A DNA stretch of 37,066 nt, from the NCBI GenBank assembly GCA_021822605.1, contig JAKAQL010000018.1:1-37066 (forward strand), written 5' to 3'. Origin of the DNA: Actinomycetes bacterium. Its GTDB lineage: Bacteria > Actinomycetota > Acidimicrobiia > Acidimicrobiales > Acidimicrobiaceae. Below the pieces are notes generated by a model. That model made no database searches, had not been told where the DNA came from, and saw only the letters and a list, made by a program, of their open reading frames with translations. Made by a program: the position numbers and the translations under genes. Shown piece by piece: positions 4,103-36,541 of this stretch (its first letter is position 1; the number at the start of each line of letters is the position of its first letter).

Positions 4103-4157
4103 CAAATCGGAGGGATAGGTGGGTGACCAATGGCAAGAATGATGAGAGGAAGATCGC

Positions 4158-4613: not shown

Positions 4614-5398
4614 TGCTCGCTGAGATTGCGACCATGGGTACGGTCTTTACCCTCTCTGTCGCTGATCAGAATGGGGCGGAGACCGTGGATCACATCGAGG
4701 GTGGCTGGGAGTTACTTGTTGAGCGCGCGACCACCGAGCTTGCACGTATCGACGCTGTCTTTAGCACCTATCGGAGTGATAGTGAGGTGAGCCGCTGGCG
4801 TCGAGGTGAGCGCGGCGTGTGTAGCGATGATCTCGACGAGGTGATCAGCCTGTGCGAGACTGCGCGAGACCTTTCAGATGGTTACTTTGACCCATGGGCG
4901 GTTCCTGGAGGGTTTGACCCATCGGGGTTGGTGAAGGGTTGGGCAGCTGAGCGTGTCCTTGGGATGATGGTCACAGCAGGAGTCTCTGAAGCGGTGGTCA
5001 ACGGCGGCGGAGACATTGCGATCCATAGCGACACCCCGATCAACGTAGGCATCCGTCACCCTCACCACGCTGACCGGCTATGCGGAGTGGTTCAGACCAA
5101 TACCGCCGTGGCGACGTCGGGGCTCTATGAGCGCGGATGCCATGTCGTCAACCCCTTCGGCGGTGAACTCGGCGCGTTTGCGGCTACGGTCGTAGGGGCA
5201 CCACTCTACCTCGCTGATGCGCTCGCGACAGCGGTGATCGCCGGAGGCATGCGAGTTCTCGAACGAATCGGTCAGGAGGGTTCTTTCCGTGGTTTGCTGA
5301 TCACTCACGATGAGACGATGCATGCGCTGCCGGGAACGGTGCTCTCATTGGCAGACCTCCAGGGGTCGCAAGGACTTCCAGAGGGCTCTCTGAACTAG
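4613..5398 (+). CDS. apbE: FAD:protein FMN transferase (ApbE family)
   Basis: ApbE transfers FMN from FAD to a threonine of FMN_bind proteins. Family motifs are visible in order: MGTVFTLSV near the N-terminus (8-16), DPSGLVKGWAAERV (102-115), VVNGGGDIAI (128-137), TSGLYERGCHVVNP (168-181) and ADALATAVIAGG (201-212), whose Asp and Thr belong to the Mg site. The 261-residue length fits the shorter, cytoplasmic-looking ApbE forms; no signal peptide is obvious, though the family often acts outside the membrane. The substrate is almost certainly the FMN_bind protein encoded immediately upstream, with which it overlaps by one base. Its stop overlaps that of the convergent peroxidase gene in CTAG (5395-5398). 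Confidence 0.9.
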   Translation: MLAEIATMGTVFTLSVADQNGAETVDHIEGGWELLVERATTELARIDAVFSTYRSDSEVSRWRRGERGVCSDDLDEVISLCETARDLSDGYFDPWAVPGGFDPSGLVKGWAAERVLGMMVTAGVSEAVVNGGGDIAIHSDTPINVGIRHPHHADRLCGVVQTNTAVATSGLYERGCHVVNPFGGELGAFAATVVGAPLYLADALATAVIAGGMRVLERIGQEGSFRGLLITHDETMHALPGTVLSLADLQGSQGLPEGSLN

Positions 5399-6318
5399 GC
5401 GTCGCTGAGGAGTTCCAGAAGCTGCATCGATGGACAGAAGAAGAGGGTACCGGTGAGCGCGGTGGAGAAGTCGAGCAACCGGTCGTGGTTGCCGGGAGGA
5501 TCTCCTAGGAACATGTTGTTCAGCATCTGCTCGGTGATCCGGACGTCTTTTGCATAACCGATAAAGTAGGTGCCGTAGCTCTGGTCCTGAAGGCTGCCAA
5601 AAGGCATGTTGAGCCGATAGATCGCGAGCTCCTCGTCGTTGGTGTCGCGGATGTTGTTGAGTGCGACATGGGAGTTGACAGGCTTGATTGTGTCGTCGAG
5701 TTCAATATTTTCGAGTTTGCGACGCCCGACTGCTCGTTCCTGATCCTCGGTGGTGAGTGCTTCCCATGCTTTAAGATCGTGGAGATACTTCTGGACGATC
5801 ACATAACTGCCGCCGATGAAGTCTGGTTCCTCCTCCCTGATGATGGCTACCTCGGCCGCCTCGCTCTGATCGGGGTTCTCTGTCCCATCGACGAAACCGA
5901 GGAGATCGCGTTGGTCGAGATACTTAAAACCCTGTACCTCGTCAACGATCTCGGAGCCGGTCGGTAGTCGGTCCTTGATGAGACGAGCGAGCTCGAAGCA
6001 TAGGCCGAGCTCTTGGGATCGGATGTGGAAGAACAGATCTCCCGGCGTGGACGGCGCATGGTGGGTGGCACCATTGACTGGGATGAAGGGGTGGAGGTGT
6101 GCGGGTCGCTCGTTCGGCGAGAGCTGATCCCAAAGCAGTGAGCCGATGCCGATAACGCAGCTGAGTTGGTCCTCAGGATAGCGAAAACCCACTGCCTTGG
6201 TGAGGCCACTGACCTCTCCGAGGAGGGAGCGGATCTCGTTCGTTCGATCGGACGCAACAGTGGCGACCATGAAAATGGCGGCTCGAGTCAGCGGTGTTGC
6301 AATCTCTTGGGGCCTCAT
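5395..6318 (-). CDS. Dyp-type heme peroxidase (YfeX-like)
   Basis: A 307-residue dye-decolorizing peroxidase. Using the start at 6318, the GxxDG motif GFVDGTENP begins at about 141 with the distal Asp at 144. The proximal heme ligand is H217 in NSHVALNN, and the distal Arg is R235 in YRLNMPFG. It uses H2O2 to oxidise an unknown substrate in the cytoplasm; no signal peptide and no encapsulin-targeting tail are seen. The start at 6318 is chosen because AGGAGGT lies five bases upstream; an upstream GTG frame at 6366 has no such site. It is convergent with apbE and about 93 bp downstream of the DoxX-like gene, likely in one transcript. Confidence 0.88.
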   Translation of the reverse strand: MRPQEIATPLTRAAIFMVATVASDRTNEIRSLLGEVSGLTKAVGFRYPEDQLSCVIGIGSLLWDQLSPNERPAHLHPFIPVNGATHHAPSTPGDLFFHIRSQELGLCFELARLIKDRLPTGSEIVDEVQGFKYLDQRDLLGFVDGTENPDQSEAAEVAIIREEEPDFIGGSYVIVQKYLHDLKAWEALTTEDQERAVGRRKLENIELDDTIKPVNSHVALNNIRDTNDEELAIYRLNMPFGSLQDQSYGTYFIGYAKDVRITEQMLNNMFLGDPPGNHDRLLDFSTALTGTLFFCPSMQLLELLSDA

Positions 6319-6411
6319 GTTACCTCCTGCTAGACGGATGCGGGCGGCCACCATCGAGCGCCTCACATGTTGTGACTACCACCCCGGTGGGTACTGCTTC
6401 GGTGGATTGGG

Positions 6412-7786: not shown

Positions 7787-8626
7787 ATGGGGGTGACAAA
7801 AGTACTGCTGATTGAGGAGGATGATCTCATCGCTCGGGGTATGACCGCGGTCCTCAATGACCTTGGTTGGGACCTTCCGATACGGGTTGGCAGGGTCAAC
7901 GAGGTGTCACGCTCGACCCTGGAGCGGACTCCCGTGGTGCTCGTTGGTTTGACACCGCAGAATACCGATTCGATCCCACCACTCATCAAGGAGTGTTGTC
8001 ATGTGGTTGTCTATTCGAGCTCGGTCGGCTCTCGCCACGTTGGTGATGCGATCGGTGCCGGTGTTCTGGGCTACCTAGAGCGCAACCCATTTGATCCCGA
8101 GGAGCTCTCTCGCCAGCTCCAATTGACCCTCCAGGGCACGCGACATGTGTCGCGAGGGTTGGCAAACCGGCTCTTGGATGACATGGGACAGCGACCGCTA
8201 CCCCAATCCCAGGAACTTGATGATGTCGCTGTTGGGTACCTGCGGAGGCGTGGTGAACAAGCATATCTTGGTGTCGACGGCGCGCATCGCTGGGAGGAGA
8301 TCGGGCTCATCCAGCACATCTGGAGTACCTGGGCCAGGAGGGCACAAGCCTACCGTCTTGATCTGACCGAGCGCCAGGTGGCGATCCTGGCGGCCCTCGA
8401 CCGAGGGCTGAGCGTCGGTGAGATTGCCGAGACGCTCTTTGTCTCGGTGGCAACGGTTCGAGCTGACCAGGATCGGGTGAAGGAGCGCGTTGCTGAGATC
8501 ATCGGCACTGAGCTCAGGCGAGATACAGCCTGTCGCAGGGCGTGGCACCTTATGCATGGCATGTGGCACACTGAGCATGAGGCACCGGAGGGGAGCGAAC
8601 CCGCGCATCGGCGCGTCGCACCATAG
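7787..8626 (+). CDS. Orphan LuxR-type regulator with a degenerate receiver domain
   Basis: The first 115 residues follow the fold order of a response-regulator receiver: acidic EEDD at 10-13, then hydrophobic strands. The phosphoacceptor position in TPVVLVGLTP is Gly54 instead of Asp, and the usual Lys is Glu98 in GYLERN, so conventional phosphorylation is unlikely. A roughly 75-residue linker leads to a LuxR/GerE helix-turn-helix at about 193-238 (LTERQVAILAALDRGLSVGE). No histidine kinase is adjacent. It probably binds DNA in response to something other than phosphorylation, or constitutively. AAGGAGGAG sits six bases before the ATG. The tail after residue 245 is unrelated to known domains. 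Confidence 0.75.
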   Translation: MGVTKVLLIEEDDLIARGMTAVLNDLGWDLPIRVGRVNEVSRSTLERTPVVLVGLTPQNTDSIPPLIKECCHVVVYSSSVGSRHVGDAIGAGVLGYLERNPFDPEELSRQLQLTLQGTRHVSRGLANRLLDDMGQRPLPQSQELDDVAVGYLRRRGEQAYLGVDGAHRWEEIGLIQHIWSTWARRAQAYRLDLTERQVAILAALDRGLSVGEIAETLFVSVATVRADQDRVKERVAEIIGTELRRDTACRRAWHLMHGMWHTEHEAPEGSEPAHRRVAP

Positions 8627-9002
8627 CGCTGGTCTAATCAACCTCTGTGACGATTGCCCGTCGATGGATCATCGGTCGGTAGGACACCGGGAGTGGGCGT
8701 CGCGTGGCTGCGGCGTGGTGGCCTCAAGTGGCTAGGGATGTCTGAGGTTTGCCAGCGGGCGATGTGAGGCAGTGTGAGCAAGGCCATCAGAGGGTTCTCA
8801 TTGCAGGGCACCCACGGACTCTTAGCTCCCTCATGGATGACGTTGGGCACCCAAGGACGAAGTGGACCCTTGGCCCCGATCGCCCTTTGTTGAAGCGTCG
8901 GCGACTCCATCGAGGTCTCGGGGTGCACTACACGATGACGAGCGTCGATTATCCGTGCCGAGAGGGATCCGGAACGTATGATCGATCACGCGCGGGAGTG
9001 GA
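8627..9002. other. Intergenic region, no gene seen
   Basis: About 375 bp between convergent genes. Two overlapping inverted repeats are visible: TTGGG/CCCAA at 8843-8854 with a 2-base loop, and CCAAGG/CCTTGG at 8851-8873. They could help stop transcription from either side, but neither is followed by a clear T-run. Confidence 0.4.
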
Positions 9003-9656
9003 CTACTCCTCCTCCTCCTCCTCCTCCTCGGGGTGTGACGGTTCGCTCGCAGCGGCTGGAGATGGTGTTTTGTGCTTGGTGGTGCGGGTGAAGGTGAACC
9101 AAACGAGTGCGCCGACGGCTAGTCCGAGGATCACCTTACCGACGATTCCGAGTTCAAAGACGAACCAGCGCCATGCGTAAGCTGGGTGATGGATGAAGAG
9201 CTGAGGGAAGCCGAGAAATTTGGGCGCGTAGACGACCTTGCCGATGACGTCCTTCATGCGCAGAGGTGGAACGAAAACGTCCGGTCGGCTCGCGGGGTTC
9301 TCTCCTTTGGTGACGAGGTCCCCATTGGGCTTGATGGCGATGAGCTGGTGAGCCCAGATGAGTCCGTTGGCATGGAATTCGATCACCTCTCCGACGTGAT
9401 AAGAGGGTTCGTGCTCCACAAAGATCATGGATCCCGGTGGGATAGTGGGCCACATCGAGGGAGTGTAGACGTAGCTATGGTTGGTGAAGGAAAGAAGAAG
9501 GGCGCCTCCGGCAATGAGTGCCGCGAGAATAGCGATCCCAAGAGCCTTTGCGACTCGTGTCATGGCTGATCGTGAACCGTCTGGGGCGTTCGAACTACTC
9601 TGAGACGCGGGCATATCTTCTGCCCCGGCTGGGGTGGAGGCCTGCGTAAGATCCAT
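9003..9656 (-). CDS. Signal peptidase I, SipW/Sec11-like (S26B)
   Basis: A membrane protease of the archaeal/ER-like branch of signal peptidase I. The catalytic serine is S67 in TPSMWPTIPPGSM, and the general base position is H103 in LIWAHQLIAI (a Ser-His pair instead of Ser-Lys). The TKGENPASRPD segment (116-126) matches the conserved box after it. Membrane helices lie at about 36-56 and 166-190, followed by a Pro/Ala/Glu tail ending in eight glutamates. Members of this type often process TasA/camelysin-like proteins, and a gene for such a protein lies directly upstream in the same orientation. The ATG at 9656 has GGAGGGAG seven bases before it. Confidence 0.85.
   Translation of the reverse strand: MDLTQASTPAGAEDMPASQSSSNAPDGSRSAMTRVAKALGIAILAALIAGGALLLSFTNHSYVYTPSMWPTIPPGSMIFVEHEPSYHVGEVIEFHANGLIWAHQLIAIKPNGDLVTKGENPASRPDVFVPPLRMKDVIGKVVYAPKFLGFPQLFIHHPAYAWRWFVFELGIVGKVILGLAVGALVWFTFTRTTKHKTPSPAAASEPSHPEEEEEEEE
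9006..9029 (-). repeat. (GAG)8 trinucleotide run at the signal peptidase C-terminus
   Basis: Eight perfect GAG codons stand directly before the TAG stop, giving a polyglutamate end. Length changes by slippage would alter the tail without shifting the frame. Confidence 0.85.
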
Positions 9657-9716
9657 AATATGCTCCCTCCTCGTTCAAGTGTATCGGTTGACTCTAACAA
9701 ACAAAGAATACGCGGA

Positions 9717-9753
9717 GTGCCCCGCTATGGCGAATTGCCATGGGGCGGGGCAC
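9717..9753 (-). terminator. Strong hairpin between the TasA-like gene and the signal peptidase gene
   Basis: GTGCCCCGC (9717-9725) pairs with GCGGGGCAC (9745-9753), and ATGGC (9727-9731) with GCCAT (9737-9741) around a GAATT loop. On the minus strand the stem is followed, after about six bases, by a T-rich stretch (TATTCTTTGTTTGTT), as in an imperfect intrinsic terminator. It probably lets the abundant structural protein be made in excess of the downstream protease by partial termination. Confidence 0.65.
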
Positions 9754-9794
9754 GAACCGCATCTAGTGAGTGGAACTAGTTGTTGGCTGTGTTG

Positions 9795-10493
9795 CTAATT
9801 GGCTGTCAACGTTGGCTGGTTGGCACTACTTGCTGGTTCAGCTGTGATCGTGTAGTTGATGGTAACTGACGCACCATTCCAATCGTTCGCTCCCCAGCCG
9901 GGCCCTGTGTTCGTGGTTGATGATGGGACCAGCGCTACTTGAAGGTTTCCACCAGCGAGTGCATATCCGGAACCAAGTGGTGGTAGGGGAGTGGTTCCCG
10001 TGAGCGGGAACGAAACCGGCGTACCCGAGGAGAGAGCCGTCGTGTCCGCGAGGGTTAACTCTACGTTGTCAACAGGCGAGCTTGACGTTGTTGACGTTGT
10101 GCCTGGAGTGAACTGAGTGATCTGAAAGTCAAGCTGTCGAAGGGCGGCCCAGTTTGGAATCCCACCACTCACACCAATACCGTTCACACCCGTAATTGTT
10201 AACGTGAGGTTTTCAGGCACGTTACCGGTATTTTTTACCTCAAATGGCTTCGCATTGGTCCAATCATAGCCAGAAGTGTCTCCGTAGGTGCCTTCCGGTA
10301 ATAATCCAGTGGCGGTTAGTTGATCGCCCGCTAAAATTGACTCGCTCACTTTTGCACCCGTGGCAGAGAGACTGCCAGTTTCGGTCGCGCTGAACTGAGT
10401 GTGCACCGGCGACGCTGCAAAGAGCATCGCGGTGGTGCCACCGGCAACGGCAAGCGCGCTCAGCTTGGCGACAATATGATCCCGATATCCCAT
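9795..10493 (-). CDS. TasA/camelysin-like secreted protein (SipW-type signal)
   Basis: The N-terminus has the signature of SipW-processed proteins: basic start, a hydrophobic segment LSALAVAGGTTAMLFAASPV, then QFSATETGSLSATGA. The mature part is a Ser/Thr/Gly-rich beta domain with FEVKNTGNVPENLTLTITGV and a C-terminal VTINYTITAEP strand, as in TasA-like fibre or coat proteins. The ATG at 10493 is seven bases behind GAGGAGG; another ATG at 10499 lies too close to that site. A SipW-like peptidase gene follows after a terminator-like hairpin. A role in surface fibres or biofilm matrix is inferred from the family. A second, anchored relative is encoded at 24153-25070. Confidence 0.75.
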   Translation of the reverse strand: MGYRDHIVAKLSALAVAGGTTAMLFAASPVHTQFSATETGSLSATGAKVSESILAGDQLTATGLLPEGTYGDTSGYDWTNAKPFEVKNTGNVPENLTLTITGVNGIGVSGGIPNWAALRQLDFQITQFTPGTTSTTSSSPVDNVELTLADTTALSSGTPVSFPLTGTTPLPPLGSGYALAGGNLQVALVPSSTTNTGPGWGANDWNGASVTINYTITAEPASSANQPTLTAN

Positions 10494-10499
10494 GTCCAT

Positions 10500-10796
10500 T
10501 CCTCCTCTTTAGGTTTCATGGGTACCGGTTTCGCCACTCGCTCTTCCTGGACTGAGGCGACCAACGTACGTCCAGGGATCATTGCGTTACCCAACTGTCA
10601 AGCTAGGGACGAGGGGCCTTCCAGACCCTATCAGATCGACTATTTGTACTTCAGTTGCGTAGTTGGGCGTCGGTGTTGGAGACATCGAGCGCAGCGTTCG
10701 CTAGGGCTCCTCTGGTATCTCAGTCTTCAATTTTGAGCCAAGTTTTCAAGTGGCCATTTTGAGTTTCGCATGTTCGAGATAGTTGCCGACATCGTT
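10500..10796. other. Intergenic region with iterated TTTTGAG/TTTTCAAG motifs
   Basis: The part next to 10493 should contain the promoter of the TasA-like gene. At 10729-10763 the motif AATTTTGAG, a related GTTTTCAAG and ATTTTGAG follow each other at roughly 12-14 bp spacing. Their appearance, next to broken mobile DNA, resembles the multiple terminal repeats of IS21-like elements. No gene is seen. Confidence 0.45.
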
Positions 10797-11156
10797 TTAA
10801 ATGGTGCAGAGCGCCCGTTGTAACCCGATAGCAGCAGGTTGTTCATCAGCCACAAGAAGGGGTGGTAGAACGCGGTGGCCTAGCTTGGTGTAGGTGATGG
10901 CAAAGCGGATTCCCTCTGGCGTAAGCGTATAGCTGTTGGTATGGGGAATCCTTGTCATGAGACCCTTAACGCGCAGCTTACGCAGATCATAGGTCATTTG
11001 GGTGGCATTACAGGGACCACCAAGCAGCTGGGACACCGATGCACAAAGGCTCTTGTTGCTGAAGCCGATGACGGTATTGAGTGCCACGTGAGAGCGCACC
11101 GGCCAGGACCATGACGCGTTTATCTCCGAAGCGTATCTGGAGTGATCCAACCCAGA
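10797..11156 (-). pseudogene. C-terminal fragment of a large winged-helix protein of unknown function
   Basis: The reading frame contains GFSNKSLCASVSQLLGG, then QMTYDLRKLRVKGLMTRIPH and TNSYTLTPEGIRFAITYTK. From memory this is the conserved end of a roughly 400-500-residue actinobacterial protein family, in which a winged-helix-like YDLRRLRxxGLIxRIPHT motif closes the protein. Only about 100 of these residues remain. The 5' part is replaced by the IS3 fragment that begins near 11157. Upstream residues in the same frame do not resemble the family. Not expected to be functional. Confidence 0.55.
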
Positions 11157-11453
11157 TGAACCACCCAGAATGTGAGAGGACCGACCATAATAGATACGGG
11201 AGGGAAGCTCATGTTGAGCAAAAGACATACGCCAGAACAAGTCATCACCAAAATTGCTGAGGGTGACCAGATGTTGAACGAAGGTAACACACTCGCAGAG
11301 GTTGCTCGCAGTTTCGGCATCACTCGGACCACCTGGTACCGGTGCCAAGAGTACCTACGGCGGGATGAAGGCCAACGATGCCAAACGCCTCAAAGAGCTC
11401 AAAGCCGAAGAACCGAAGGCTCGTGTGTCGTCAATGCGAAAGGAGGTGAAGAC
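11157..11453 (+). mobile_element. IS3-family element fragment: left end plus frameshifted orfA
   Basis: From the ATG at 11211 (AGGGAAG upstream) the frame MLSKRHTPEQVITKIAEGDQ matches the helix-turn-helix OrfA of IS3-family elements. After WYRCQ, near 11352, the match continues in the next frame as YGGMKANDAKRLKELKAEE, so a frameshift has broken the gene. The family signal ends at about 11453, where the putative intron starts. TGAACCACCC at 11157 resembles the left end of IS407-type elements (inference). OrfB, with the catalytic DDE domain, is absent. The element is dead and itself interrupts the remnant gene to its left. Confidence 0.65.
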
Positions 11454-12195: not shown

Positions 12196-12243
12196 ATGAA
12201 TCACATGTACTGCCGATGAATCACCTGCGCTAGGTATGAATCA
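12196..12243. repeat. Three ATGAATCAY repeats at exact 20-bp period
   Basis: ATGAATCAC at 12196 and 12216 and ATGAATCAT at 12236 are spaced 20 bp apart. The last copy overlaps the final codons of the phosphoribulokinase gene (stop at 12230-12232). This may be the terminal-repeat array of a lost insertion sequence that landed at the 3' end of the gene, possibly supplying the present last codons. Confidence 0.55.
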
Positions 12244-13156
12244 TATGGTGTAACAGGATCAGCTGCGCCACCGCCAAGGGCGCTGATCGCTCGGTGGGGC
12301 TGATCACGCCGAGGCTCTCGGGGATCTCCCCGTCGAGACCGATCTTCTCCCATAGCTTCTCCTCGACCAGCCTGCTGGCGGCCACCGGGGCGTGCCCATG
12401 GACGTGGAGTGCATCCACCGGTTTGCCGTCCTGGTCGCGGATCAGTTTGATGTGGGCGGCCTCTCGGGTGGCTGGTGTCAGGATATCGTGGATGTCTGGG
12501 TGTGGCACCGTCGGTCGCAACAGGATCGTCGCGCTGATCTCCTTTCGACCCTCGACTGGCGCGAAGGAGATGACGATGTCCGCGTGCGCCCGCTGGGGTC
12601 GGATGAACTTCTCCGATTCGGGTTCTCGTTTGTCGAGGTCGGCGAGCACCTGTTCTTCGGTATAGCCGCGCTTGGCGACGTCGCGCTGGATCTTCCACTC
12701 GCGTCGCACCGGTTCAGGTGGATCGAGGTAGGCGGTGACGTCAAAGGTAGCTCTTGACAGGCGCGACCAGAGTGGGAACAGTCCTTCCACAATCACGATC
12801 TCGCGTGGAGTGAAGAGCTCGGGTCGACCGAGACTACCGTCGGCGTGGTGATACTTGGGTTTCAAGATGGGTTGCCCGAGAGTCAGGAGCTGTAAGTGCT
12901 GCTCCATAATGTCGAGGTAGTTGCACTCTGGGTTGAGAGGAGTGAAGGGGAGGCTCTTGCGCTCCGTCCGATCGTAGCGATGGTAGTCGTCGGTACAGAA
13001 CGAGGAGATGCGATGCTCGCCGATGGCCTGGACCAGCCCCTTGGTCAGTGTCGTCTTACCGGAGGCCGAGTCCCCTGCGATGGCGAGCATAGCCACTCGT
13101 TCGGGGTGGGGTTGGGTGGCGAGGAGTTTCTGGATAGCTGCGATACGATGGGGCAT
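12230..13156 (-). CDS. prk: Phosphoribulokinase
   Basis: Prk uses ATP to convert ribulose 5-phosphate to ribulose 1,5-bisphosphate, the RuBisCO substrate. The P-loop GDSASGKTT is at 28-36. FCTDDYHRYDR, the NPECNYLDIMEQHL segment, IVIVEGLFPLWS, YLDPPEPVRREWKIQRD and a KRGYT segment are all family hallmarks. The length of 308 residues is usual for bacterial enzymes. It follows the transketolase-GlpX fusion gene by 54 bp on the same strand, so the two are probably co-transcribed. AAGGAAGGG stands before the ATG. The last few residues may have been altered by the repeat array that overlaps the stop codon. Confidence 0.93.
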   Translation of the reverse strand: MPHRIAAIQKLLATQPHPERVAMLAIAGDSASGKTTLTKGLVQAIGEHRISSFCTDDYHRYDRTERKSLPFTPLNPECNYLDIMEQHLQLLTLGQPILKPKYHHADGSLGRPELFTPREIVIVEGLFPLWSRLSRATFDVTAYLDPPEPVRREWKIQRDVAKRGYTEEQVLADLDKREPESEKFIRPQRAHADIVISFAPVEGRKEISATILLRPTVPHPDIHDILTPATREAAHIKLIRDQDGKPVDALHVHGHAPVAASRLVEEKLWEKIGLDGEIPESLGVISPTERSAPLAVAQLILLHHMIHT

Positions 13157-13210: not shown

Positions 13211-16087
13211 CTAGGGAACGAGGCGACGGACGATGCCGTAGCGCCCCTCCTGGATCCAGAGACTCTCAAGCTCAGTGAGGTCTCCGACCACCTTGGGTGG
13301 GGCGAGCGGATAGGCCCCTGTTACCGATGTTGCGACCACGACAGAACCAGCGTGAGCGAGGTCACTCGCCTCGAATTGCATGGTGTCATACTCTGGGTAC
13401 ACGGCCTTGACCATGGCGGCTTCTGCTTCACTTTGGGGCGCAAATCGGCTCTGCATCTGCCCCGAGAGGGCGAGGGTCGCCGCAGCAGAGATCACTCCCT
13501 CGGGGGTGCCCCCGATACCCCACAACATCACCGACCCTGAATCACCGCGCAACACCCGCAGGCTCGCCATCACGTCACCATCGGGTATCTCAATGACGGG
13601 TACACCGTGACCCCGCAGGTTAGCGATCATCGTCTCGTGGCGCGGTTTAGCCAAGATGACGACGGTAGTCTCACCGATCCCGAGTCCAAGACGGCTTGCG
13701 ACATTCTTGACATTTTCAAGCAGCGGACGCGAGATATCGACGACGCCAGCCGCTCGCTCTCCGACGATGAGCTTTTCTAGGTAGTAGCCGGGCAGCGGGG
13801 TAAATCCTCCCCCGGGGGCTGCTGCAATGACCGAGATTGCACCCTCTCGACCGGTGGCGGCGAAGTTGGTTCCCTCCAGCGGGTCGATAGCGAGGTCGAT
13901 GTCGATGGTGCCGGTGCCCAGGCACTCTCCGACATAGAGCATTGGCGCGTCATCCTTCTCACCCTCACCCACAATCACCCTTGCAGAGACGGGAAGCCGT
14001 TCGAGCTCTTCGCGCATGGCGGCCACGGCAGCTGCATCAGCACGGTTCTTGTCTCCGAGGCCAGTCTCGCTGAGCGCAGCCGAGGCTGCAGCCTCGGTCG
14101 CTCGGAGGAGATCCGAGACGAGATGGGAGGGATGCCCTAGGCGATAGGAGTCGACGACGAGATCAAGGGCAGCATCAGCAACCTCAGCCGGAGTAAAGCC
14201 GAAGTGGGCAGCTACCTCGGCCATGGGTGCTGAGGTGCCAAAGTTCGTCACGTTGTAGAGTCGATCGCCTGGGCTCAAGAACTCATGCCAGCCGGTGCCG
14301 ACGCTCGCTTCAAGGACCAGCCGCGGGGTGCCGGCTGGTGCAAACCTATCCCGATCACGTGGGTCGAGCGCCAAGAAGCGCTCCCGCCAGGGTACGGAGA
14401 TGACCCGGGCGTCGACGTCGTCCTCAGCTTTGAGGATCTTGGCCGCCTCGATAGCAAGCGCCACCTCTGAGCCAGAGGCGACCAGCACCACCTCAGGGGA
14501 GGTGTGAGGGTCATTATGGACGATACGAGCTCCGTTGGTCATGAGCCAGTCCACAGCTTCGGCAGTCGGGAGCTGTGGTAGCGGTTGTCGAGTAAGGGCG
14601 AGAATCGTTGGTCGACTGCGCTCGGCGAGGGCGAGTTCCCAACTCGCAAAGGTCTCAAAGGCATCAGCTGGGCGCAGCACCGTGGTGTTGGGGATGATGC
14701 GGAGCGCCTCAAGTTGTTCGATTGGCTGGTGGGTTGGGCCATCCTCGCCAACGGCAAAGGAGTCGTGCGAGAAGAGGTAGATAACACCGAGCCCCATAAG
14801 CGCACTGAGGCGCAACGAGGGACGGAGATAGTCGGAGAAGACGAGAAAGGTGGAGACATAGGGGGTAAACCCGTACAGGGCGAGACCGTTGGCGACCGCG
14901 GCCATCGCGTGTTCACGGATCCCAAAGTGGATCGCTGAACCCGAGAAGTCGTCCGGGGTGATCGCTTGGAGACCGACGTTGAGCCCGGTTGACTCACCGA
15001 GGTCAGCCGACCCTCCGATCAATCCTGGCGCTGGGTCAGGACCGGTCGCGAGTGACTTGAGAAACAGCGCTGACGCCGCCCTGGTGGCTAGTGGCGTCGT
15101 TGGTAGAGGTGGGGTCTGACGCGACTGGGTGCCAGTGACGCTCATCCAGGCTTTGTGTTCTTGGCGCCAGGTAGTAGCAACAGCTTGCTTGTCTGCGACG
15201 ATGCCCGCCACATAGGTGCGAACATCATCGGGAACCAAGAAGGTCTCCTGGGTGGGCCAGTCATAGGCGGCCTTCGTGGCGGCGAGCTCTTCGGCGCCGA
15301 GCGGTGCGCCATGGGCCTTGGAGGTTCCCTCCTTCGCCGGTGCACCCCTGCCGATGATGGTTGGGGCGATGATCAGGCTTGGACGCGTTTGATCGGCCAT
15401 CGCCTCTCGATAGACCCGTTCGATCTCATCGAGGTCCTCAGTGTCCTTGATCGTGAGAACTTGCCAGCCATAGCTTTCAAAGCGAGCGATTGGATCGTCG
15501 GTGCAGGACTGCTGTCTGGGACCATCGATAGTGATGTCATTGGAGTCATAACCCACAATGAGATGACCCAGGCGGAGCATCCCAGCGAGTGATGCAGCCT
15601 CATGACTGAGACCCTCCATCAGATCTCCATCGGAGGCGAGCACGAAGGTGTAGTGGTCGATAGGGGATCCATCCGTCCCGAGCCGTAGTTTCGCCTCGCC
15701 AATAGCGATGCCTACCGCGGTCGCGAGCCCCTGCCCTAGCGGACCAGTGGTGGTCTCCACACCCGGCGTATGCCCGTATTCGGGATGACCGGGGGTCTTT
15801 GACCCGATTTGGCGGAAGCGACGTAGCTCCTCGAGGGATAGATCGTAGCCAAAGAGATGGAGCAACGAGTAGAGGAGCGCGGAGCCATGGCCGGCGGAGA
15901 GGATGAAGCGATCCCGATTCGGCCAGCTTGGGTCCTCGGGGTCAAAGTTCATCAGCCGTGCGAAGAGCGTGTAGGCAACGGGTGCGAGACCAAGAGGTAG
16001 TCCTGGGTGGCCGGAGTTTGCCGCCTCGACTTGGTCGATGGAGAGCATCCGCACGGTCGTGACACAACGCTCGTCGATTGGATTCAT
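13211..16087 (-). CDS. Transketolase fused to GlpX-type fructose/sedoheptulose bisphosphatase
   Basis: One uninterrupted 958-residue frame. Residues 1 to about 648 are a full transketolase: NSGHPG with H27, thiamine-binding ASDGDLMEG (151-159) and its following DSNDITIDG, HFGIREHAM with the catalytic Glu at 392, and the C-terminal GTGW..F domain. From about residue 654 (HLVSDLLRATEAAASAA) a complete class II FBPase/GlpX follows: GLGDKNRADAAAV (676-688), GEGEKDDAPML (707-717), DPLEGTN (735-741) and LWGIGGTPEGV (855-865). There is no linker beyond a few residues and no internal ribosome site at the join (near 14130). The bisphosphatase makes fructose 6-phosphate or sedoheptulose 7-phosphate, direct substrates or products of transketolase, so fusion may aid channelling or fixed stoichiometry. 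AAAGGAG lies eight bases before the ATG. Confidence 0.93.
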   Translation of the reverse strand: MNPIDERCVTTVRMLSIDQVEAANSGHPGLPLGLAPVAYTLFARLMNFDPEDPSWPNRDRFILSAGHGSALLYSLLHLFGYDLSLEELRRFRQIGSKTPGHPEYGHTPGVETTTGPLGQGLATAVGIAIGEAKLRLGTDGSPIDHYTFVLASDGDLMEGLSHEAASLAGMLRLGHLIVGYDSNDITIDGPRQQSCTDDPIARFESYGWQVLTIKDTEDLDEIERVYREAMADQTRPSLIIAPTIIGRGAPAKEGTSKAHGAPLGAEELAATKAAYDWPTQETFLVPDDVRTYVAGIVADKQAVATTWRQEHKAWMSVTGTQSRQTPPLPTTPLATRAASALFLKSLATGPDPAPGLIGGSADLGESTGLNVGLQAITPDDFSGSAIHFGIREHAMAAVANGLALYGFTPYVSTFLVFSDYLRPSLRLSALMGLGVIYLFSHDSFAVGEDGPTHQPIEQLEALRIIPNTTVLRPADAFETFASWELALAERSRPTILALTRQPLPQLPTAEAVDWLMTNGARIVHNDPHTSPEVVLVASGSEVALAIEAAKILKAEDDVDARVISVPWRERFLALDPRDRDRFAPAGTPRLVLEASVGTGWHEFLSPGDRLYNVTNFGTSAPMAEVAAHFGFTPAEVADAALDLVVDSYRLGHPSHLVSDLLRATEAAASAALSETGLGDKNRADAAAVAAMREELERLPVSARVIVGEGEKDDAPMLYVGECLGTGTIDIDLAIDPLEGTNFAATGREGAISVIAAAPGGGFTPLPGYYLEKLIVGERAAGVVDISRPLLENVKNVASRLGLGIGETTVVILAKPRHETMIANLRGHGVPVIEIPDGDVMASLRVLRGDSGSVMLWGIGGTPEGVISAAATLALSGQMQSRFAPQSEAEAAMVKAVYPEYDTMQFEASDLAHAGSVVVATSVTGAYPLAPPKVVGDLTELESLWIQEGRYGIVRRLVP

Positions 16088-16845: not shown

Positions 16846-18012
16846 CTATGCAACTGGGCCGATGGGGACTAAGAGCCGTACCAGGGTTCCCTCGCCAAGC
16901 GTCGAGAAGAGTTCGAGACGCCCTCCGATTATCCGAGCTCGTTCTCTCATCCCGCCGAGGCCAAAGCCGTTTGAGTGCGCGGCGGTGTTGAAGCCATCTC
17001 CGCGATCTCGTATGACGACGACCAAATCACCTCCGATTGAGGCGAGTCGCAGCTCGCAGGTGGTTACCCCGGAGTGTTTCCATGCGTTGTTGATCGCCTC
17101 CTGCATAATGCGGAGCACGGCTAGCGCACGTGCAGGTGCGAGTGCGGGGTCGGCATCATCGGTTCGATCCTCCACGACCACCTCGAAGTCGGGATAGGAG
17201 TTGGCGAGGGTCTCGATCGCCTCAGCGAATCCAAACTCGTCAAGTGCCTGTCGCGGCGTGTCTTGGATCAACCGTCGCATCGCCTGGGTGCTCGCCTTGA
17301 GTAGATCGGAGGCTACACAGACATCGCGTGCCTCGTGTTCGTCGAGAGCAGGTGAGGCCTTGACCGCCTCAAGTCGATAGTAGGCGGCGTGTACCTGTTG
17401 AAGGACCCCGTCGTGGAGCTCGAGCTGGAGACGGCGGCGCTCCGCCTCTTGGGCCTCGATGAGCTGCTGTGCGAAGCCCTCGAGGGCACGCTCGTGAGCT
17501 CCTAGCTTTGCAACGAGGAGCGTGTGCTCGAATGCTCCGGCGAGAAAGCTCGCAACGGTGGTAAGCACCTGTTGTTGCTGGAGAAGGTCGACATCCTTGT
17601 GCTGCCAGTGGACGTTGAGCACTCCGACGACGTTCCCGGTCGCGTGAACCATCGGCACCGAGATGAGCACCTGGAAGAGCTCCCCTTGGAGCTCAGGGAG
17701 GTAGCGATAACGGTGATCGGTCCACTTATCGGGAACGACCGCGACTTGACCGGTTTGGGCTACCCAACCAGCGATGCCATCTCCGAGTCCGAGCCATACC
17801 TGGTGACGGTAGGAGTCAAAGGGTGGGGTTGCGCCGACGAGTTCAAGACGCATGAGTTCTGGATCCACGAGGTGGACGAAGCAGACGTTTGCACCGACCG
17901 CATCGACCACGAGGGCTGCAGTCTGGGCCGCCAGCTGATCGAGGTCCAAGGTCTCGGCAAGCACCTGGGCGAGTTTTCGATAGAGGTTGAGTTCCTCGGG
18001 GTCGGTATTCAT
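16846..18012 (-). CDS. GAF-domain sensor histidine kinase (NarL/DegS type)
   Basis: A soluble 388-residue kinase. An N-terminal GAF sensor (about 12-165) is followed by a HisKA_3 dimerisation helix with the phosphorylated H200 in RLQLELHDGVLQQ. The HATPase domain has its N box QEAINNAWKHSG (304-315), DRGDGFN and GFGLGGMRERA. No membrane helices are present, so it senses a cytoplasmic signal, perhaps a small molecule or redox state bound by the GAF domain. Its ATG overlaps the stop of the response regulator (ATGA at 18009-18012), so the pair is translationally coupled. Its location between CBB genes suggests control of carbon fixation, but no target site is proven. Confidence 0.9.
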   Translation of the reverse strand: MNTDPEELNLYRKLAQVLAETLDLDQLAAQTAALVVDAVGANVCFVHLVDPELMRLELVGATPPFDSYRHQVWLGLGDGIAGWVAQTGQVAVVPDKWTDHRYRYLPELQGELFQVLISVPMVHATGNVVGVLNVHWQHKDVDLLQQQQVLTTVASFLAGAFEHTLLVAKLGAHERALEGFAQQLIEAQEAERRRLQLELHDGVLQQVHAAYYRLEAVKASPALDEHEARDVCVASDLLKASTQAMRRLIQDTPRQALDEFGFAEAIETLANSYPDFEVVVEDRTDDADPALAPARALAVLRIMQEAINNAWKHSGVTTCELRLASIGGDLVVVIRDRGDGFNTAAHSNGFGLGGMRERARIIGGRLELFSTLGEGTLVRLLVPIGPVA

Positions 18013-18665
18013 CGGAAGGTCACATCCCGTAGGGCAACGGCTACCGCCTCGGCTCTTGACTTCACCTTCAGTTTACGATAGATCGACGAGAGGTGACTCT
18101 TGACCGTCTCCTCCCCGAGGAAGAGACTCTGGGCGATGGACTTTGTTGCCATGCCCTTCACGATGAGTTCGAGAATCTCACTCTCTCGATGGGTGAGTCC
18201 GAGATGGGCACCTGGCCAGAACTCGCCGAGTTGGAGGCGTGCCGCTAGCAGTGCGACGCGGCCGGCGATGGAAGGGTCGATCGTGACCTCGCCGTCGACG
18301 ACTCTGCGCAGAAGTCCAACCAACTCAGCTCCGGTAGCCTGCTTGAGAAGATAGCCCCGAGCGCCAGCGCGAAGGGCTCGAAACAGATACGCCTCGTCGT
18401 CGTAGGCGGTATAGAAGACGACCGCTACGTCTATCCCCCGAGTGGTGATCTGCTCAAGCAGCTCAAACCCTGAGCTTGTCTTCAGCCTCGCATCGGTGAG
18501 CACGATGTCGGGTAACGGGGAGGTGGTGAGTAGCTCGATCGCTTCGTCGACGGTCTTCACGGCGGAGGCGACCTCTACCTCGTCGACGTGGGTCCGTAGC
18601 ATCGCACGAACTCCGTCGATGATCACCTCATGGTCGTCGACCAGCATCAGCTGAATGGCTCTCAT
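18009..18665 (-). CDS. NarL/LuxR-family response regulator
   Basis: From the ATG at 18665 the receiver domain begins MRAIQLMLVDDHEV, with D10/D11, phosphoacceptor D58 in DIVLTDARL, T86 in FYTAYDD and K108 in GYLLKQA: all key residues are present. A LuxR helix-turn-helix occupies about 150-205 (LTHRESEILELIVKGMATKS). It is the partner of the kinase encoded immediately downstream, overlapping by four bases. A GTG start at 18707 would add 14 residues without homology. The chosen start overlaps the stop of a 65-codon upstream frame (ATGA at 18662-18665), which suggests coupled translation. Confidence 0.9.
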   Translation of the reverse strand: MRAIQLMLVDDHEVIIDGVRAMLRTHVDEVEVASAVKTVDEAIELLTTSPLPDIVLTDARLKTSSGFELLEQITTRGIDVAVVFYTAYDDEAYLFRALRAGARGYLLKQATGAELVGLLRRVVDGEVTIDPSIAGRVALLAARLQLGEFWPGAHLGLTHRESEILELIVKGMATKSIAQSLFLGEETVKSHLSSIYRKLKVKSRAEAVAVALRDVTFR

Positions 18666-18859
18666 GAGGGGTGTTCCCCCCTCCACAGCCGTGCCTGCGG
18701 CTGGCACCTCGCGGTCATCGTCGTGGATGTGAGATCAACTCTGTGCTCGTCGGCGGGTGAGCACAGATGAGTGGCGAGGCAGGGCCGATCGAATGCCTCC
18801 TTGGGGTAACTGGTAGGCCGATCGTCTCGCTGAAGGGTGATTCCGGTCGTGATCTTCAT
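18662..18859 (-). CDS. Possible 65-aa leader protein coupled to the response regulator
   Basis: The frame starts MKITTGITLQRDDRP behind TTGGAG at six-base spacing and ends ...RLWRGEHPS, its TGA overlapping the regulator's ATG in ATGA. The same overlap style joins regulator and kinase, so three consecutive coupled genes are plausible. The protein is hydrophilic with three cysteines and several histidines, no membrane segment and no family I recognise. It could be a real small protein or a leader that sets regulator translation. An upstream GTG-type extension to 18961 has poor composition. Coding is not proven. Confidence 0.4.
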   Translation of the reverse strand: MKITTGITLQRDDRPTSYPKEAFDRPCLATHLCSPADEHRVDLTSTTMTARCQPQARLWRGEHPS

Positions 18860-19041: not shown

Positions 19042-20043
19042 CTAGACGCTGATGAGGTGCCGGGGCCGGAGGACGGAGGCGGTGGTGGTGATGCGAGTCA
19101 TCAGGCTTGTCTGGGTTTGCTGGCGATCCTGGCCGGAACTCGCCCAGACCTTCATCGGAGTATCTTGGAGTGCTCGTCCGAAGGAGAAGGTGATCGGCCA
19201 TGGTAACGCCTCGATCTCGTTCATCGCGGCCAGGTTGGCGGTTGCCGCTTCGTCGGACTGCCCGCCGGAGAGGAGCGCAATCCCTGCGACTGAGGCCGGC
19301 ACGACGTCGCGATAGCACTCGACTGAGGCCTCTGCGATCGCCTTTGGACTGGCTGTGGGCCCATTCGTGCCCGGGGTGATCATCGATGGCTTGAGGACCA
19401 TCCCCGAGAGCGTCACGTCAAAGGACCTGAGCTGGTCAAAAACGGCAGCAAGGACTGTCTTGGCAACTCGGCTGGTCATCGCAAGGTCATGGTCACCCTC
19501 CATGAGGATCTCGGGTTCGACGATCGGGACGATGCCTGACTCCTGACAGAGCTTGGCGTAGCGAGCCAGGGCGTGCGTGTTGGCCTGGATGCAGACTGCG
19601 CTGGGTTTACCACGGTCGATCTGGAGCACTGCACGCCATTTAGCAAAGCGAGCCCCCTTCGCGTAGTAGTCGATCAGACGGGGGCCGAGGTTGTCGAGCC
19701 CTTCGGTCACCAGTTCCCCGTCTGCTCCAGCCAGAGGCTTTGCGCCGGTATCAACCTTAATTCCCGGCAGCATGCCGAGATCGGCCAGGAAGTCTGGGAA
19801 GGAGAGGCCGGTAGTGGTCGTCTGATTGAAGGTTTCGTCATAGAGAATGACACCAGAGACGTACTCTCCGAGTCCCGGTGAACTGAAGAGGGTTTCACGC
19901 CAATCACGACGTGTGAGCGCGGTCGATTCAAGTCGATTGACGGCAAAGCGTTTGGTAAGCGTGGGGCTACTCTCATCAGCTGCGAGAATCCCTTTCGGGT
20001 ACGCCACCATCGCAGCCGCGTTTTCGATCAGTTCCTTTGACAT
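19042..20043 (-). CDS. Fructose-bisphosphate aldolase, class I
   Basis: Class I (Schiff-base) aldolase of the eukaryote-like type, 333 residues. GILAADES (18-25) is the family's N-terminal signature, GARFAKWRAVL (130-140) the phosphate/substrate segment, IVPIVEPEIL (171-180) an active-site strand, and K218 in SGMVLKPSMITPG the Schiff-base lysine. LLSGGQSDEAAT follows. In the CBB cycle it joins dihydroxyacetone phosphate with glyceraldehyde 3-phosphate or erythrose 4-phosphate, making the substrates for the GlpX domain encoded nearby. GGGGAGG lies four bases before the ATG. The cbbR-like gene ends 24 bp upstream on the same strand, so both are probably in one transcript. Confidence 0.93.
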   Translation of the reverse strand: MSKELIENAAAMVAYPKGILAADESSPTLTKRFAVNRLESTALTRRDWRETLFSSPGLGEYVSGVILYDETFNQTTTTGLSFPDFLADLGMLPGIKVDTGAKPLAGADGELVTEGLDNLGPRLIDYYAKGARFAKWRAVLQIDRGKPSAVCIQANTHALARYAKLCQESGIVPIVEPEILMEGDHDLAMTSRVAKTVLAAVFDQLRSFDVTLSGMVLKPSMITPGTNGPTASPKAIAEASVECYRDVVPASVAGIALLSGGQSDEAATANLAAMNEIEALPWPITFSFGRALQDTPMKVWASSGQDRQQTQTSLMTRITTTASVLRPRHLISV

Positions 20044-20067: not shown

Positions 20068-21021
20068 TCAACCTAGGCGCCTGGGTCCTTCAACCTTCTC
20101 ACCCAAAACGTGGGGCTCTGGGGTGAACTCTACCTCACCCATGGATCCCAAGTAGTTGACGAAGTGCTTGATGCCCTCAGCGAGGACCTCCCCGGTGCGA
20201 ACGACTAGGCACCACGAACGACGCTGAGGCAGGGGCTCGACGGTAAGGGAGACGAGTTCACCATCTGCTAACTCCTTAGCGACCGACTCGGTTGAGATGA
20301 TTGCGACGCCGAGACCGAGCTCCACGAGTCGCTTCATTGCGAGGTTCGACCCAACCGAGAGGGTTGGTGGACTGATCGCGAGTTCACCGAGAAGCTCCTC
20401 AGCAGATGCTCGTGTTCCAGAACCAGGTTCACGAACAAGCCAGGTGTGCTCTCCGATCTGTTGCGAAGTGGGTGAGAGCGAACCGTCGAACCACTCGGTG
20501 GCCCGGCGCTCGTTGGCGATGAGGGCGAGTTCGTGCCCTCTGGTGGCGATCACTCGCACAAACTCACTTTGGGTCGGTCTCCCCGAGATGACCAGGTCGA
20601 CCCGATGGTCTCCGAGGAGCTCGAAGAGGGTCGTCTTGTTGGCGACCTCTAGGTTGATGGTCGCGTGTGGCACCAGCTCGAGATAACCCTGGAGCCAACG
20701 GGGGAGCAGCTCCTCTCCCACGGTGGCGACGGCCCCGATTCGCAGTGTCGGTGCGTCGGGTTGGCTGGCCTCACGACTGCGCACCAGCGCCTCCTCCATG
20801 GCGCCGAGCAGGGTGGAGGCGTAGCCGGCGAGCACCGTGCCTGCTGGGGTGAGGGCAAGTCCACGCCCAACTCGCACTGTCAGTTCTGTGCCCACCTCGC
20901 GCGACAGCGCCGCCAAGGTGGATGACACGGCGGCGGAACTGACAAAGAGGCGTCGGCTCGCTCCAACAACGGATCCAGTGTCGGCCACTGCGAGGAGGGT
21001 TTTGAGCTGTGTGTTGGTCAT
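20068..21021 (-). CDS. cbbR: LysR-type regulator, CbbR-like
   Basis: A LysR-family activator with an N-terminal winged helix (LKTLLAVADTGSVVGASRRL and VSSAAVSSTLAALSREVG) and a periplasmic-binding-like effector domain from about residue 90 (LRIGAVATVGEELLPRWLQG). It is divergent from cbbLSX with a 125-bp gap, the standard cbbR arrangement, which is the main reason for the name. Effectors of CbbR in other bacteria are metabolites such as RuBP or NADPH; nothing here shows which applies. Five possible starts (ATG at 21033, 21030, 21027 and 21021, CTG between) lie in a row; the last fits the family N-terminus best. No clear ribosome site. Confidence 0.85.
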   Translation of the reverse strand: MTNTQLKTLLAVADTGSVVGASRRLFVSSAAVSSTLAALSREVGTELTVRVGRGLALTPAGTVLAGYASTLLGAMEEALVRSREASQPDAPTLRIGAVATVGEELLPRWLQGYLELVPHATINLEVANKTTLFELLGDHRVDLVISGRPTQSEFVRVIATRGHELALIANERRATEWFDGSLSPTSQQIGEHTWLVREPGSGTRASAEELLGELAISPPTLSVGSNLAMKRLVELGLGVAIISTESVAKELADGELVSLTVEPLPQRRSWCLVVRTGEVLAEGIKHFVNYLGSMGEVEFTPEPHVLGEKVEGPRRLG

Positions 21022-21033
21022 CAGCATCATCAT

Positions 21034-21113: not shown

Positions 21114-22595
<1,482 letters not shown>

Positions 22596-22616: not shown

Positions 22617-23033
22617 ATGCATCTCACCCAAGGTCAATTTTCATTTCTACCACCGCTGACTGACGAACAGATCAGCGCCCAGATCCGTTGGGCTCTCGAT
22701 CACGATTGGGCAGTCGGCGTCGAGTTTACCGATGATCCGCATCCTCGGAATACCTACTGGGATATGTGGGGGATGCCAATGTTTGACCTCCGCGATCCAG
22801 CAGCCATTCTCTATGAGATCAACGAATGTCGCCGGGCCTATCCGACCCGCTATATTCGCGTGACCGCCTTCGACTCGACGAGAGGGTGGGAGGCACCTCG
22901 GATGTCCTATCTAGTGAATCGACCGGAGGAGGAGCCCGGATTCTCAATTGTTCGCCAGGAGGGTGAGGGGCGACACATCACCTATACCACCCACAGTTAC
23001 GCGACCGAACAGCCGCCAGGGGAACGCTATTGA
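22617..23033 (+). CDS. cbbS: RuBisCO small subunit, red type
   Basis: A 138-residue small subunit with the expected [20 protein letters not shown] opening, the [18 protein letters not shown] block and the [10 protein letters not shown] strand. After about residue 105 it continues with [20 protein letters not shown] and an aromatic tail, the C-terminal hairpin extension typical of red-type small subunits, which builds the solvent channel of the L8S8 complex. AAAGAGGAG precedes the ATG. It lies 21 bp behind cbbL. Confidence 0.96.
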
Positions 23034-23105
23034 GCACCACGATCGATACCGGTCGTTCGAGGCAGGAGCTTGTCTGTTATGGGTGATCGAGAGGGAGCCG
23101 GAACC

Positions 23106-24008
23106 ATGCCCGATGGTGTGGATCTTGGAGCGCTCTTTCTGGAGACCAAGATCCAGGAGACTCTTGACGAACTCGATGCCGAGTTAGTTGGTCTACGACC
23201 GGTCAAAACTCGAATTCGTGAGATCGCTGCATTGCTCCTTGTCGATCGCGCGAGAGCTCAACTCGATCTCGCTGGAGGCAATCCCAGTCTGCATATGAGC
23301 TTCACCGGCAATCCGGGAACCGGCAAAACGACGGTGGCGATGCGCATGGCCGAACTTCTTGCCAAGCTTGGCTACGTTCGCCAAGGCCAGCTCGTCGCGG
23401 TTACCCGCGATGACCTGGTCGGCCAGTACATTGGACACACTGCTCCAAAGACCAAGGAGGTTCTCAAGCGAGCGATGGGAGGTGTGCTCTTCATCGATGA
23501 AGCGTACTACCTGTTCAAGCCAGAGAACGAGCGAGATTATGGTGCCGAGTCCATTGAGATACTCCTGCAGGTGATGGAGAACCAGCGTAACGATTTGGTG
23601 GTGATTTTGGCGGGGTATAAGGATCGAATGGACACCTTCTTCGCCTCGAATCCCGGTATGTCGTCACGGATCGCCCATCACATCGACTTTCCCGATTACT
23701 CCCTTGATGAGCTGGTAGCGATTGGCAAGCTTATGCTTGCAGCCCAGCAGTATCGACTCTCTGACGAAGCCGAGGAGGTGTTTCGGCGATACCTCGAACT
23801 CCGGATGACACAACCCAACTTTGCCAACGCAAGGAGTGTGCGCAACGCGCTCGATCGCACTCGTCTGCGCCAGGCCAATCGGCTCTTCGAACGACGCAGC
23901 GCGCGGGTGACCCGTGTGGATCTCATGACGATTGAGCCACCTGATATCCTGGCGAGCCGGGTCTTTGAAGCCGATTCGCAAGGGAACGACCGGGAACAGG
24001 GTGGCTGA
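23106..24008 (+). CDS. cbbX: CbbX, AAA+ red-type RuBisCO activase
   Basis: CbbX removes inhibitory sugar phosphates from red-type RuBisCO by pulling on the large-subunit C-terminus. Visible are the N-terminal [20 protein letters not shown] segment, the Walker A loop [10 protein letters not shown], the pore-loop region [18 protein letters not shown], Walker [12 protein letters not shown], the sensor region [11 protein letters not shown] and the C-terminal [20 protein letters not shown] with the arginine sensor. The ATG at 23106 has GAGGGAG eight bases upstream. In-frame alternatives are ATG 23079 and TTG 23070; the difference is a short unstructured N-terminus. It begins about 70 bp after cbbS in the same operon. 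Confidence 0.95.
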
Positions 24009-36458: not shown

Positions 36459-36541
36459 GCTAACCTCCTTGCTCTGTAGTGTATGACCAGAGGGTGACAA
36501 GGCGACGCTCACGAGAGTGAAAGGAGCGCACGGACAGTCAG

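Follow-up and report, generated by a model that had tools for sequence, protein, structure and literature searches.

A transketolase–GlpX fusion gene in the Calvin-cycle cluster of the Acidimicrobiaceae

Results

The fusion gene and its domains

In a stretch of 37,066 nucleotides from an Actinomycetes bacterium of the family Acidimicrobiaceae (assembly GCA_021822605.1, contig JAKAQL010000018.1, positions 1 to 37,066; the whole stretch is called the window below), a single gene encodes a transketolase (TKT) followed by a GlpX-type class II bisphosphatase, and it lies in a cluster of genes of the Calvin-Benson-Bassham (CBB) cycle (Table 1). No internal stop was found over the 958 codons of this tkt-glpX gene; at its base composition, the chance of such a stop-free run is about 1e-12 (single-base model). 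The motif AAAGGAG stands 7 nt 5' of the ATG. Pfam placed Transketolase_N at residues 5-317, Transket_pyr at 333-504, Transketolase_C_1 at 521-632 and FBPase_glpX at 656-955, all four with scores far over the cut-offs. The TKT part passed the TIGR00232 model narrowly (687 bits, cut-off 682.25), and the GlpX part matched PF03320 at full length (profile positions 3-302 of 307, 299.7 bits). Solved sequences matched either the first part (transketolases and weaker relatives) or, from about residue 655, the second (GlpX and other fructose/sedoheptulose bisphosphatases), and none of the 58 matched covered both.

An earlier note, made from the letters of the window, had described one 958-codon frame holding all transketolase motifs and then all GlpX motifs, with neither a stop nor an internal start at the junction, in a CBB context. 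The open frame and the Pfam domains (residues 5-632 and 656-955) bear out this architecture, and the gene neighbours its context. As to the junction, no in-frame ATG, GTG or TTG occurs between codons 622 and 688 of the window gene, and the frame crosses the same point in relatives (see below). The position proposed for it, 14100-14160, was about right, as the linker between the Pfam domains lies at 14123-14191.

Catalytic residues and predicted structure

The 18 complete fused genes were aligned to TktA and GlpX of E. coli K-12. For TKT we used known thiamine diphosphate (ThDP) and substrate positions, and for GlpX the ten catalytic-site residues given in the available text of PMC5892879 (Asp33, Glu57, Asp85, Glu88, Thr90, Tyr119, Lys164, Arg166, Asp188 and Glu213, E. 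coli numbering). None of the ten GlpX residues differed in any of the 18 fused genes, the window gene included, nor in three separate glpX genes of the family or in G589, a genome of another family described below. The stand-alone GlpX of the window genome carries one change among the ten, Lys164 to Arg. Elsewhere in the GlpX part, Lys29 was Arg in 3 of 18 fused genes, Glu59 was V or A in 3 of 18, and Asp61 was invariant. In the TKT part, the window gene matched E. coli TktA at 16 of 16 positions; 15 of these were invariant across the 18 genes, and I187 was I in 17 and V in one.

An AlphaFold2 monomer model was built on the 18-sequence alignment. It contains two confident domains (mean predicted local distance difference test, pLDDT, 81.6), with a helix at residues 633-649, pLDDT below 50 at 648-653, and the first GlpX helix at 655-672. 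In a Foldseek search the TKT part of the model matched solved transketolases, and the best 50 of 1017 rows were all transketolases.

Distribution in the family and selection at the junction

The Acidimicrobiaceae are acid-loving actinobacteria. Among 42 species-level genomes of the family, a frame crosses the tkt-glpX junction in 28, some of these frames ending at contig edges. The carriers belong to six genera (seven genomes in g1, one in g5, two in g7, five in g3, four in g8 and nine in g4). Three further g4 species (G714, G717 and G718) carry separate adjacent tkt and glpX genes, and G016, in which the contig ends inside the TKT part, was counted neither as fused nor as split. The fusion was seen in none of the remaining ten genomes (nine g6, one g2); eight of them have a TKT match that stops at about residue 640, within a frame of corresponding length, the contig of G723 does not reach the junction, and G724 had no match at the cut-off. 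The fusion is thus a trait of the family and not a peculiarity of the window genome. In one carrier, G012, it lies on a single contig of 2,158,157 bp. The 18 complete fusion genes come from 17 genomes and align end to end, two more are complete in G715 and G719, and the frame of G021 is closed by a stop 13 nt short of its contig end. G002 has two fusion genes (L061 and L062), and the L061 copy has neither a phosphoribulokinase (PRK) gene nor any other cluster gene beside it.

The ratio of nonsynonymous to synonymous substitution rates (dN/dS) was estimated by a counting method for the window gene against six relatives and for two other close pairs; several ratios are rough because dS exceeded 1 in those pairs. 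For residues 633-675, dN/dS between the window and its six relatives was 0.075-0.111, as compared to 0.076-0.130 for the flanking TKT and 0.030-0.056 for the flanking GlpX sequence (one GlpX value undefined). The two other pairs gave 0.045 and 0.054 at the junction. The junction is therefore under purifying selection, with ratios like those of the flanking domains.

Origin and probable fission

Phylogenies were built for TKT (65 rows, quick method) and for GlpX (93 rows). In the first, 26 fused and three split TKTs form one clade with a support of 99 in the Shimodaira-Hasegawa-like approximate likelihood ratio test (SH-aLRT), neighboured by unfused TKTs of the family and then by CBB-cluster TKTs of other actinobacteria. 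In the second, 27 fused and three split sequences group together and are set off from the stand-alone GlpX proteins (SH-aLRT 96). Since fused and split genes group together in both trees, one fusion is preferred, and a separate event in each genus is disfavoured by the two clades.

In G589, a genome from another family of the same phylum, tkt, glpX and prk stand unfused in a row (L215, about 7839-11398). Its tkt ends in CGATGA and its glpX begins at the enclosed ATG, giving a 4-nt ATGA overlap; histidine kinase (HK), response regulator (RR) and aldolase genes and a partial CbbR-like match lie nearby. In the GlpX tree the protein of G589 has a long branch, which emerges basally where fused and stand-alone GlpX part. 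This overlap is a plausible precursor-like state and, given the basal position, loss of the stop or a small frame change in such an overlapping pair would be a plausible origin of the fusion. In L088 (a Mycobacteriaceae genome), L213 (G361) and L214 (G474), PRK comes directly after TKT as far as GlpX is concerned, none lying in between, and in L089 (M. intermedium) no GlpX or PRK match followed TKT in the stretch examined. The mycobacterial-type CBB clusters of L089 and L213 have HK/RR, class I aldolase, CbbLS and TKT in common with the family, which suggests an actinobacterial type of CBB cluster.

The three split species differ in what separates the two halves: a single in-frame TAG in G714 (L264), a TGA and a TAA in G718 (L265), and a change of frame between tkt and glpX in G717 (L263). 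Plausible GTG or ATG starts of glpX lie just past the tkt stop in all three. A further tree was made from four proteins (TKT, PRK, HK and RR) of 21 family genes and two outgroups; it did not include the genes of the window itself or several incomplete loci, G021 entered without PRK, and G010 and G012 without HK and RR. In the TKT tree and in the four-protein tree the split species are nested inside fused g4, beside G009, and the nesting branches of the latter tree have ultrafast bootstrap values of 97 and 100. G714, G717, G718 and G009 also agree in what lies past HK and RR, namely cbbX-S-L in one and the same orientation. Because of these bootstrap values and the arrangement in common with G009, we favour fission: the split species most likely represent a secondary separation, in which the fusion was undone once in one sublineage.

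In the split species the two halves differ in their pace of change. Because several pairs showed saturation at synonymous sites, we compared dN only. Between G714, G717 and G718, GlpX dN was 0.250-0.279 as against 0.047-0.063 for TKT, i.e., 4-5 times higher, with PRK as a slow control at 0.039-0.048. In six fused pairs (G009/G015, G015/G719, G015/G715, G719/G715, G024/G014 and G019/G023) the values were 0.023-0.233 for GlpX and 0.035-0.314 for TKT, a ratio of 0.6-1.3. The fused-split pair G009/G714 gave 0.461 for GlpX and 0.299 for TKT. Either GlpX may be held under constraint while it is fused, or its role may have passed to another GlpX once the genes had separated.

Searches outside the family

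Further genome samples, which overlap and in part include members of the family, were searched with the full-length protein; such searches could overlook a fusion whose two parts were scored as distinct matches. Among the matches listed, none outside the family spanned both domains in 296 genomes of the class, 396 of the phylum and 347 of the order, nor in 66 genomes of the class of G589 and 19 genomes behind the fetched loci. Two samples from farther away, 301 genomes taken around one of the Anaerolineae (Chloroflexota) and 297 around a Paracoccus genome (Pseudomonadota), likewise listed no spanning match. Among the matches listed for these samples, the architecture was thus seen in the family alone.

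Five records (H1-H5) among 72,556 plasmids covered at least 80% of the query, all of them listing separate genes. Plasmids of Bacillus methanolicus and Rhodococcus resemble the fusion in that tkt and glpX fall within one joined match, but the genes are separate and fba or fgd also lies under the match. Some TKT matches outside the family ran past residue 655 by reading through stops (to 703 in G251, to 700 in G059), and no GlpX match was found in the roughly 6 kb examined for each of 16 long-running matches. The apparently joined L110 resolved into separate GlpX and TKT matches. A scan of genome contigs with a full-length profile says little about fusions elsewhere, because its best 80 loci all matched through the TKT part. 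In L222 (G398) a stand-alone GlpX match lies inside an open frame of 1033 codons, with no TKT match there.

The Calvin-cycle cluster

The fusion gene is genetically linked to the genes of RuBisCO and PRK in the window (Table 1) and also in many relatives. TKT-GlpX-PRK and HK/RR are kept together in many relatives, often along with aldolase and RuBisCO, where the contigs are long enough. In L065 (G010) and L066 (G012), PRK is the sole cluster gene beside the fusion within about 19 kb. A relative of CbbL was found in 27 of the 42 family genomes. Each of these belongs to the group of 32 made up of the fused and split genomes and G016, and none to the other ten. The RuBisCO large subunits that accompany the fusion fall into two classes, one sharing 74-99% and the other 59-60% identity with the CbbL of the window. 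In genus g8, three genomes (G019, G023 and G721; loci L073, L075 and L271) carry the fusion without a CbbL match, and PRK was seen in L073 and L075.

At other loci the window genome encodes TKT (46% identity) and GlpX (42%) as stand-alone proteins, and because the host has these as well, we regard the fusion as the Calvin-cycle copy. A short open reading frame (ORF) of the same genome (C39:3119-3637, L004) matches the N-terminal transketolase domain with 35% identity and is perhaps part of a split-type transketolase. Farther out in the window lie a ferric-reductase-like protein, ApbE and a DyP peroxidase (2741-6366) and a RmuC-family protein (35154-36551).

Table 1. Fusion gene, its parts and the neighbouring Calvin-cycle genes in the window
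Feature	Position	Strand	Evidence and remarks
tkt-glpX fusion gene	13211..16087	-	958 aa, single open frame, ATG start; ORF, Pfam, orthologues, ribosome-binding site
Transketolase part, residues 5-632	14192..16075	-	ThDP-binding, pyrimidine-binding and C-terminal domains; Pfam and aligned residues
Junction/linker between Pfam domains, residues 633-655	14123..14191	-	Pfam, model, codon scan
GlpX-type class II fructose/sedoheptulose bisphosphatase part, residues 656-955	13223..14122	-	Pfam and published catalytic-site residues
Phosphoribulokinase (PRK)	12230..13156	-	54 nt 3' of fusion stop; conserved neighbour
GAF histidine kinase (HK)	16846..18012	-	Pfam; often retained in cluster of relatives
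LuxR-type response regulator (RR)	18009..18707	-	Pfam; often retained in cluster of relatives
Class I fructose-bisphosphate aldolase	19042..20043	-	Would supply fructose 1,6-bisphosphate and probably sedoheptulose 1,7-bisphosphate
LysR regulator, CbbR-like	20068..21033	-	138.5 bits to CbbR model, below its 450 cut-off
RuBisCO large subunit, CbbL	21147..22595	+	Divergent from fusion side
RuBisCO small subunit, CbbS	22617..23033	+	Divergent from fusion side
CbbX RuBisCO activase	23070..24008	+	517.9 bits, cut-off 459.25

Discussion

We consider it likely that the gene encodes a bifunctional CBB enzyme which arose by a probable single fusion from an overlapping gene pair and was most likely split again later in one sublineage. 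This reading is carried by the open frame, the domains, the catalytic residues, the cluster, the phylogenetic pattern and the purifying selection; from these we infer both activities, the use of sedoheptulose 1,7-bisphosphate (SBP), the assembly and a benefit of the fusion. Judged from its sequence, the protein most likely couples hydrolysis of fructose 1,6-bisphosphate (FBP) and SBP to ketol transfer, with the two parts joined for co-location and stoichiometry.

In the chemistry of the CBB cycle, fructose 6-phosphate (F6P) and sedoheptulose 7-phosphate (S7P) are both products of GlpX-type FBP/SBP phosphatases and donors for transketolase. The C-terminal GlpX part would take the 1-phosphate off FBP and, by analogy with its family, off SBP, and the resulting F6P and S7P would serve as ketose donors for the N-terminal TKT part. 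The latter would move two carbons to glyceraldehyde 3-phosphate, yielding xylulose 5-phosphate (Xu5P) together with erythrose 4-phosphate (E4P) from F6P or ribose 5-phosphate (R5P) from S7P. The path would run from FBP to F6P and on to E4P and Xu5P, then through aldolase to SBP, and from S7P to R5P and Xu5P. As F6P and S7P are GlpX products and TKT donors alike, the fused enzyme would act twice per turn, on either side of aldolase. The fusion would also set a 1:1 enzyme ratio and bring a phosphatase, whose reaction is irreversible, close to a transferase that works reversibly. The claim of the earlier note that consecutive CBB steps reside on one chain gains support, at the level of sequence, from the domain content and the conserved catalytic residues. 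The origin would be one fusion within the CBB cluster of the family, probably from an overlapping tkt-glpX pair as in G589.

Transketolase is a dimer. Class II fructose bisphosphatases (FBPases) are described in the available text of PMC5892879 as 222 tetramers. Because of these two symmetries four chains could close into one complex, and the likely assembly would be a GlpX 222 tetramer bearing two TKT dimers.

Several observations weigh against parts of this interpretation. The GlpX part scored 249.9 bits with the TIGR00330 equivalog model, slightly below its cut-off of 259.3; we therefore regard it as a divergent GlpX, which the model does not identify as an exact functional equivalent. The template-modelling score predicted for the AlphaFold2 model (pTM) was 0.63, and the placing of the domains relative to each other is uncertain in it. 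The linker varies from 18 to 33 residues across the 18 genes and is weakly conserved in sequence. The link to carbon fixation is not uniform: five of the 28 fused genomes lack a CbbL match at E 1e-20 (G006, G712, G019, G023 and G721), and while four of these are 65-88% complete, G019 reaches 96%. In G012 CbbL lies about 41 kb from the fusion and nothing but PRK was found adjoining it, and the stretch of G589 examined contains no CbbL. For Ferrimicrobium acidiphilum, RuBisCO and eleven further CBB enzymes were reported in 2015 with CO2 fixation undetected, as far as the available text of the report goes (PMC4417700). Concerning fission, the split species stand next to fused g4 and not within it in the GlpX tree, contrary to the TKT and four-protein trees; the branches of the GlpX tree are long, and the tool flagged long branches meeting. 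The approximately unbiased (AU) test, applied to the four-protein tree, did not reject a single clade of fused g4 (p 0.104). The GlpX tree and the AU test thus leave room for histories without fission. Finally, the covalent link is dispensable in G714, G717 and G718, since these three species encode tkt and glpX as separate adjacent genes.

The last point bears on how much the link contributes. A near-neutral fusion, in which an overlapping tkt-glpX pair lost its stop, the domains work independently and the link adds little beyond the co-expression of an operon, is a serious contender, if somewhat short of an even chance. The precursor-like ATGA overlap of G589, the variable linker and the probable secondary split would all be expected of it, but the fusion has been kept in 28 of 42 genomes from six genera, and the GlpX/TKT dN ratio of 0.6-1.3 in fused pairs as against 4-5 in split species hints that the fusion constrains GlpX. 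Between neutrality and tight coupling, co-location with a fixed ratio is the modest inference from the joined chain and channelling the bold one. In the bold case, F6P and S7P would pass from the GlpX site to the TKT site without bulk mixing. Consecutive steps on one chain and the compatible symmetries of a GlpX tetramer and a TKT dimer speak for such channelling, or for a dedicated regeneration complex; we nevertheless think it unlikely, as the linker is short and variable and species with separate genes exist. Its fullest form is similarly doubtful: two TKT dimers on a GlpX tetramer would hand over F6P and S7P, one enzyme with two passes and an aldolase would cover most of the carbon shuffling, and loss of the link would have freed GlpX to change fast.

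That one gene gives two products, with GlpX freed by internal initiation or proteolysis, is very improbable. Possible in-frame starts (ATG, GTG or TTG) do occur close to the junction in several relatives, but these sites are not conserved, L073 and L075 have none at 620-690, and for the window an internal GlpX start was rejected on the codon scan at 622-688. For an artefact of assembly or sequencing no support was found, although the assembly to which the window belongs consists of 120 contigs; it is excluded for practical purposes because orthologues cross the junction, the frame being open in 28 genomes, one of them on a single 2,158,157-bp contig, with selection acting across it.

Returning to the bifunctional CBB enzyme, our literature search found no description of a TKT-GlpX fusion, in agreement with the earlier note, which knew of none; subscription journals were mostly outside its coverage. 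The words "fusion" and "fused" do not occur in the available text of a study of CBB gene clusters (PMC7895386), and the main text of the genome paper of Acidimicrobium ferrooxidans ICP(T) (PMC3035218) mentions neither transketolase, fusion nor Calvin. The architecture is a real and family-wide natural fusion of neighbouring sugar-phosphate enzymes, and apparently an undescribed one.

Related solutions are known. FBP aldolase/phosphatase (FBPA/P) is a single catalytic fold that performs both reactions, unlike TKT-GlpX, in which one complete enzyme is followed on the same chain by another to which it is unrelated. The two are alike in combining FBPase activity with a neighbouring reaction in one polypeptide, which in FBPA/P makes gluconeogenesis one-way, according to the available text of PMC3267732. 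Tal-Pgi, a bifunctional transaldolase/phosphoglucose isomerase said to occur in many bacteria, is likewise a natural covalent fusion of sugar-phosphate enzymes with a single-function paralogue in the genome (PMC4062416, available text); however, it joins a transaldolase to an isomerase in the pentose phosphate pathway and contains no bisphosphatase. Bacterial CBB operons assemble the same reactions of the same pathway, and FBPase, aldolase and transketolase genes often adjoin those of RuBisCO and PRK, but there the enzymes are two proteins and the first-ranked FBPase domain is PF00316 (class I), not GlpX (PMC7895386, available text).

In the window, TKT and GlpX are encoded on one chain with an aldolase in the same cluster, and the TKT-GlpX fusion would be a ready part for carbon-fixation engineering. 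Within the Acidimicrobiaceae, the fusion has apparently been kept for a long time and undone once. Because overlapping, fused and re-separated states exist side by side, the value of an enzyme fusion becomes testable with natural sequences.

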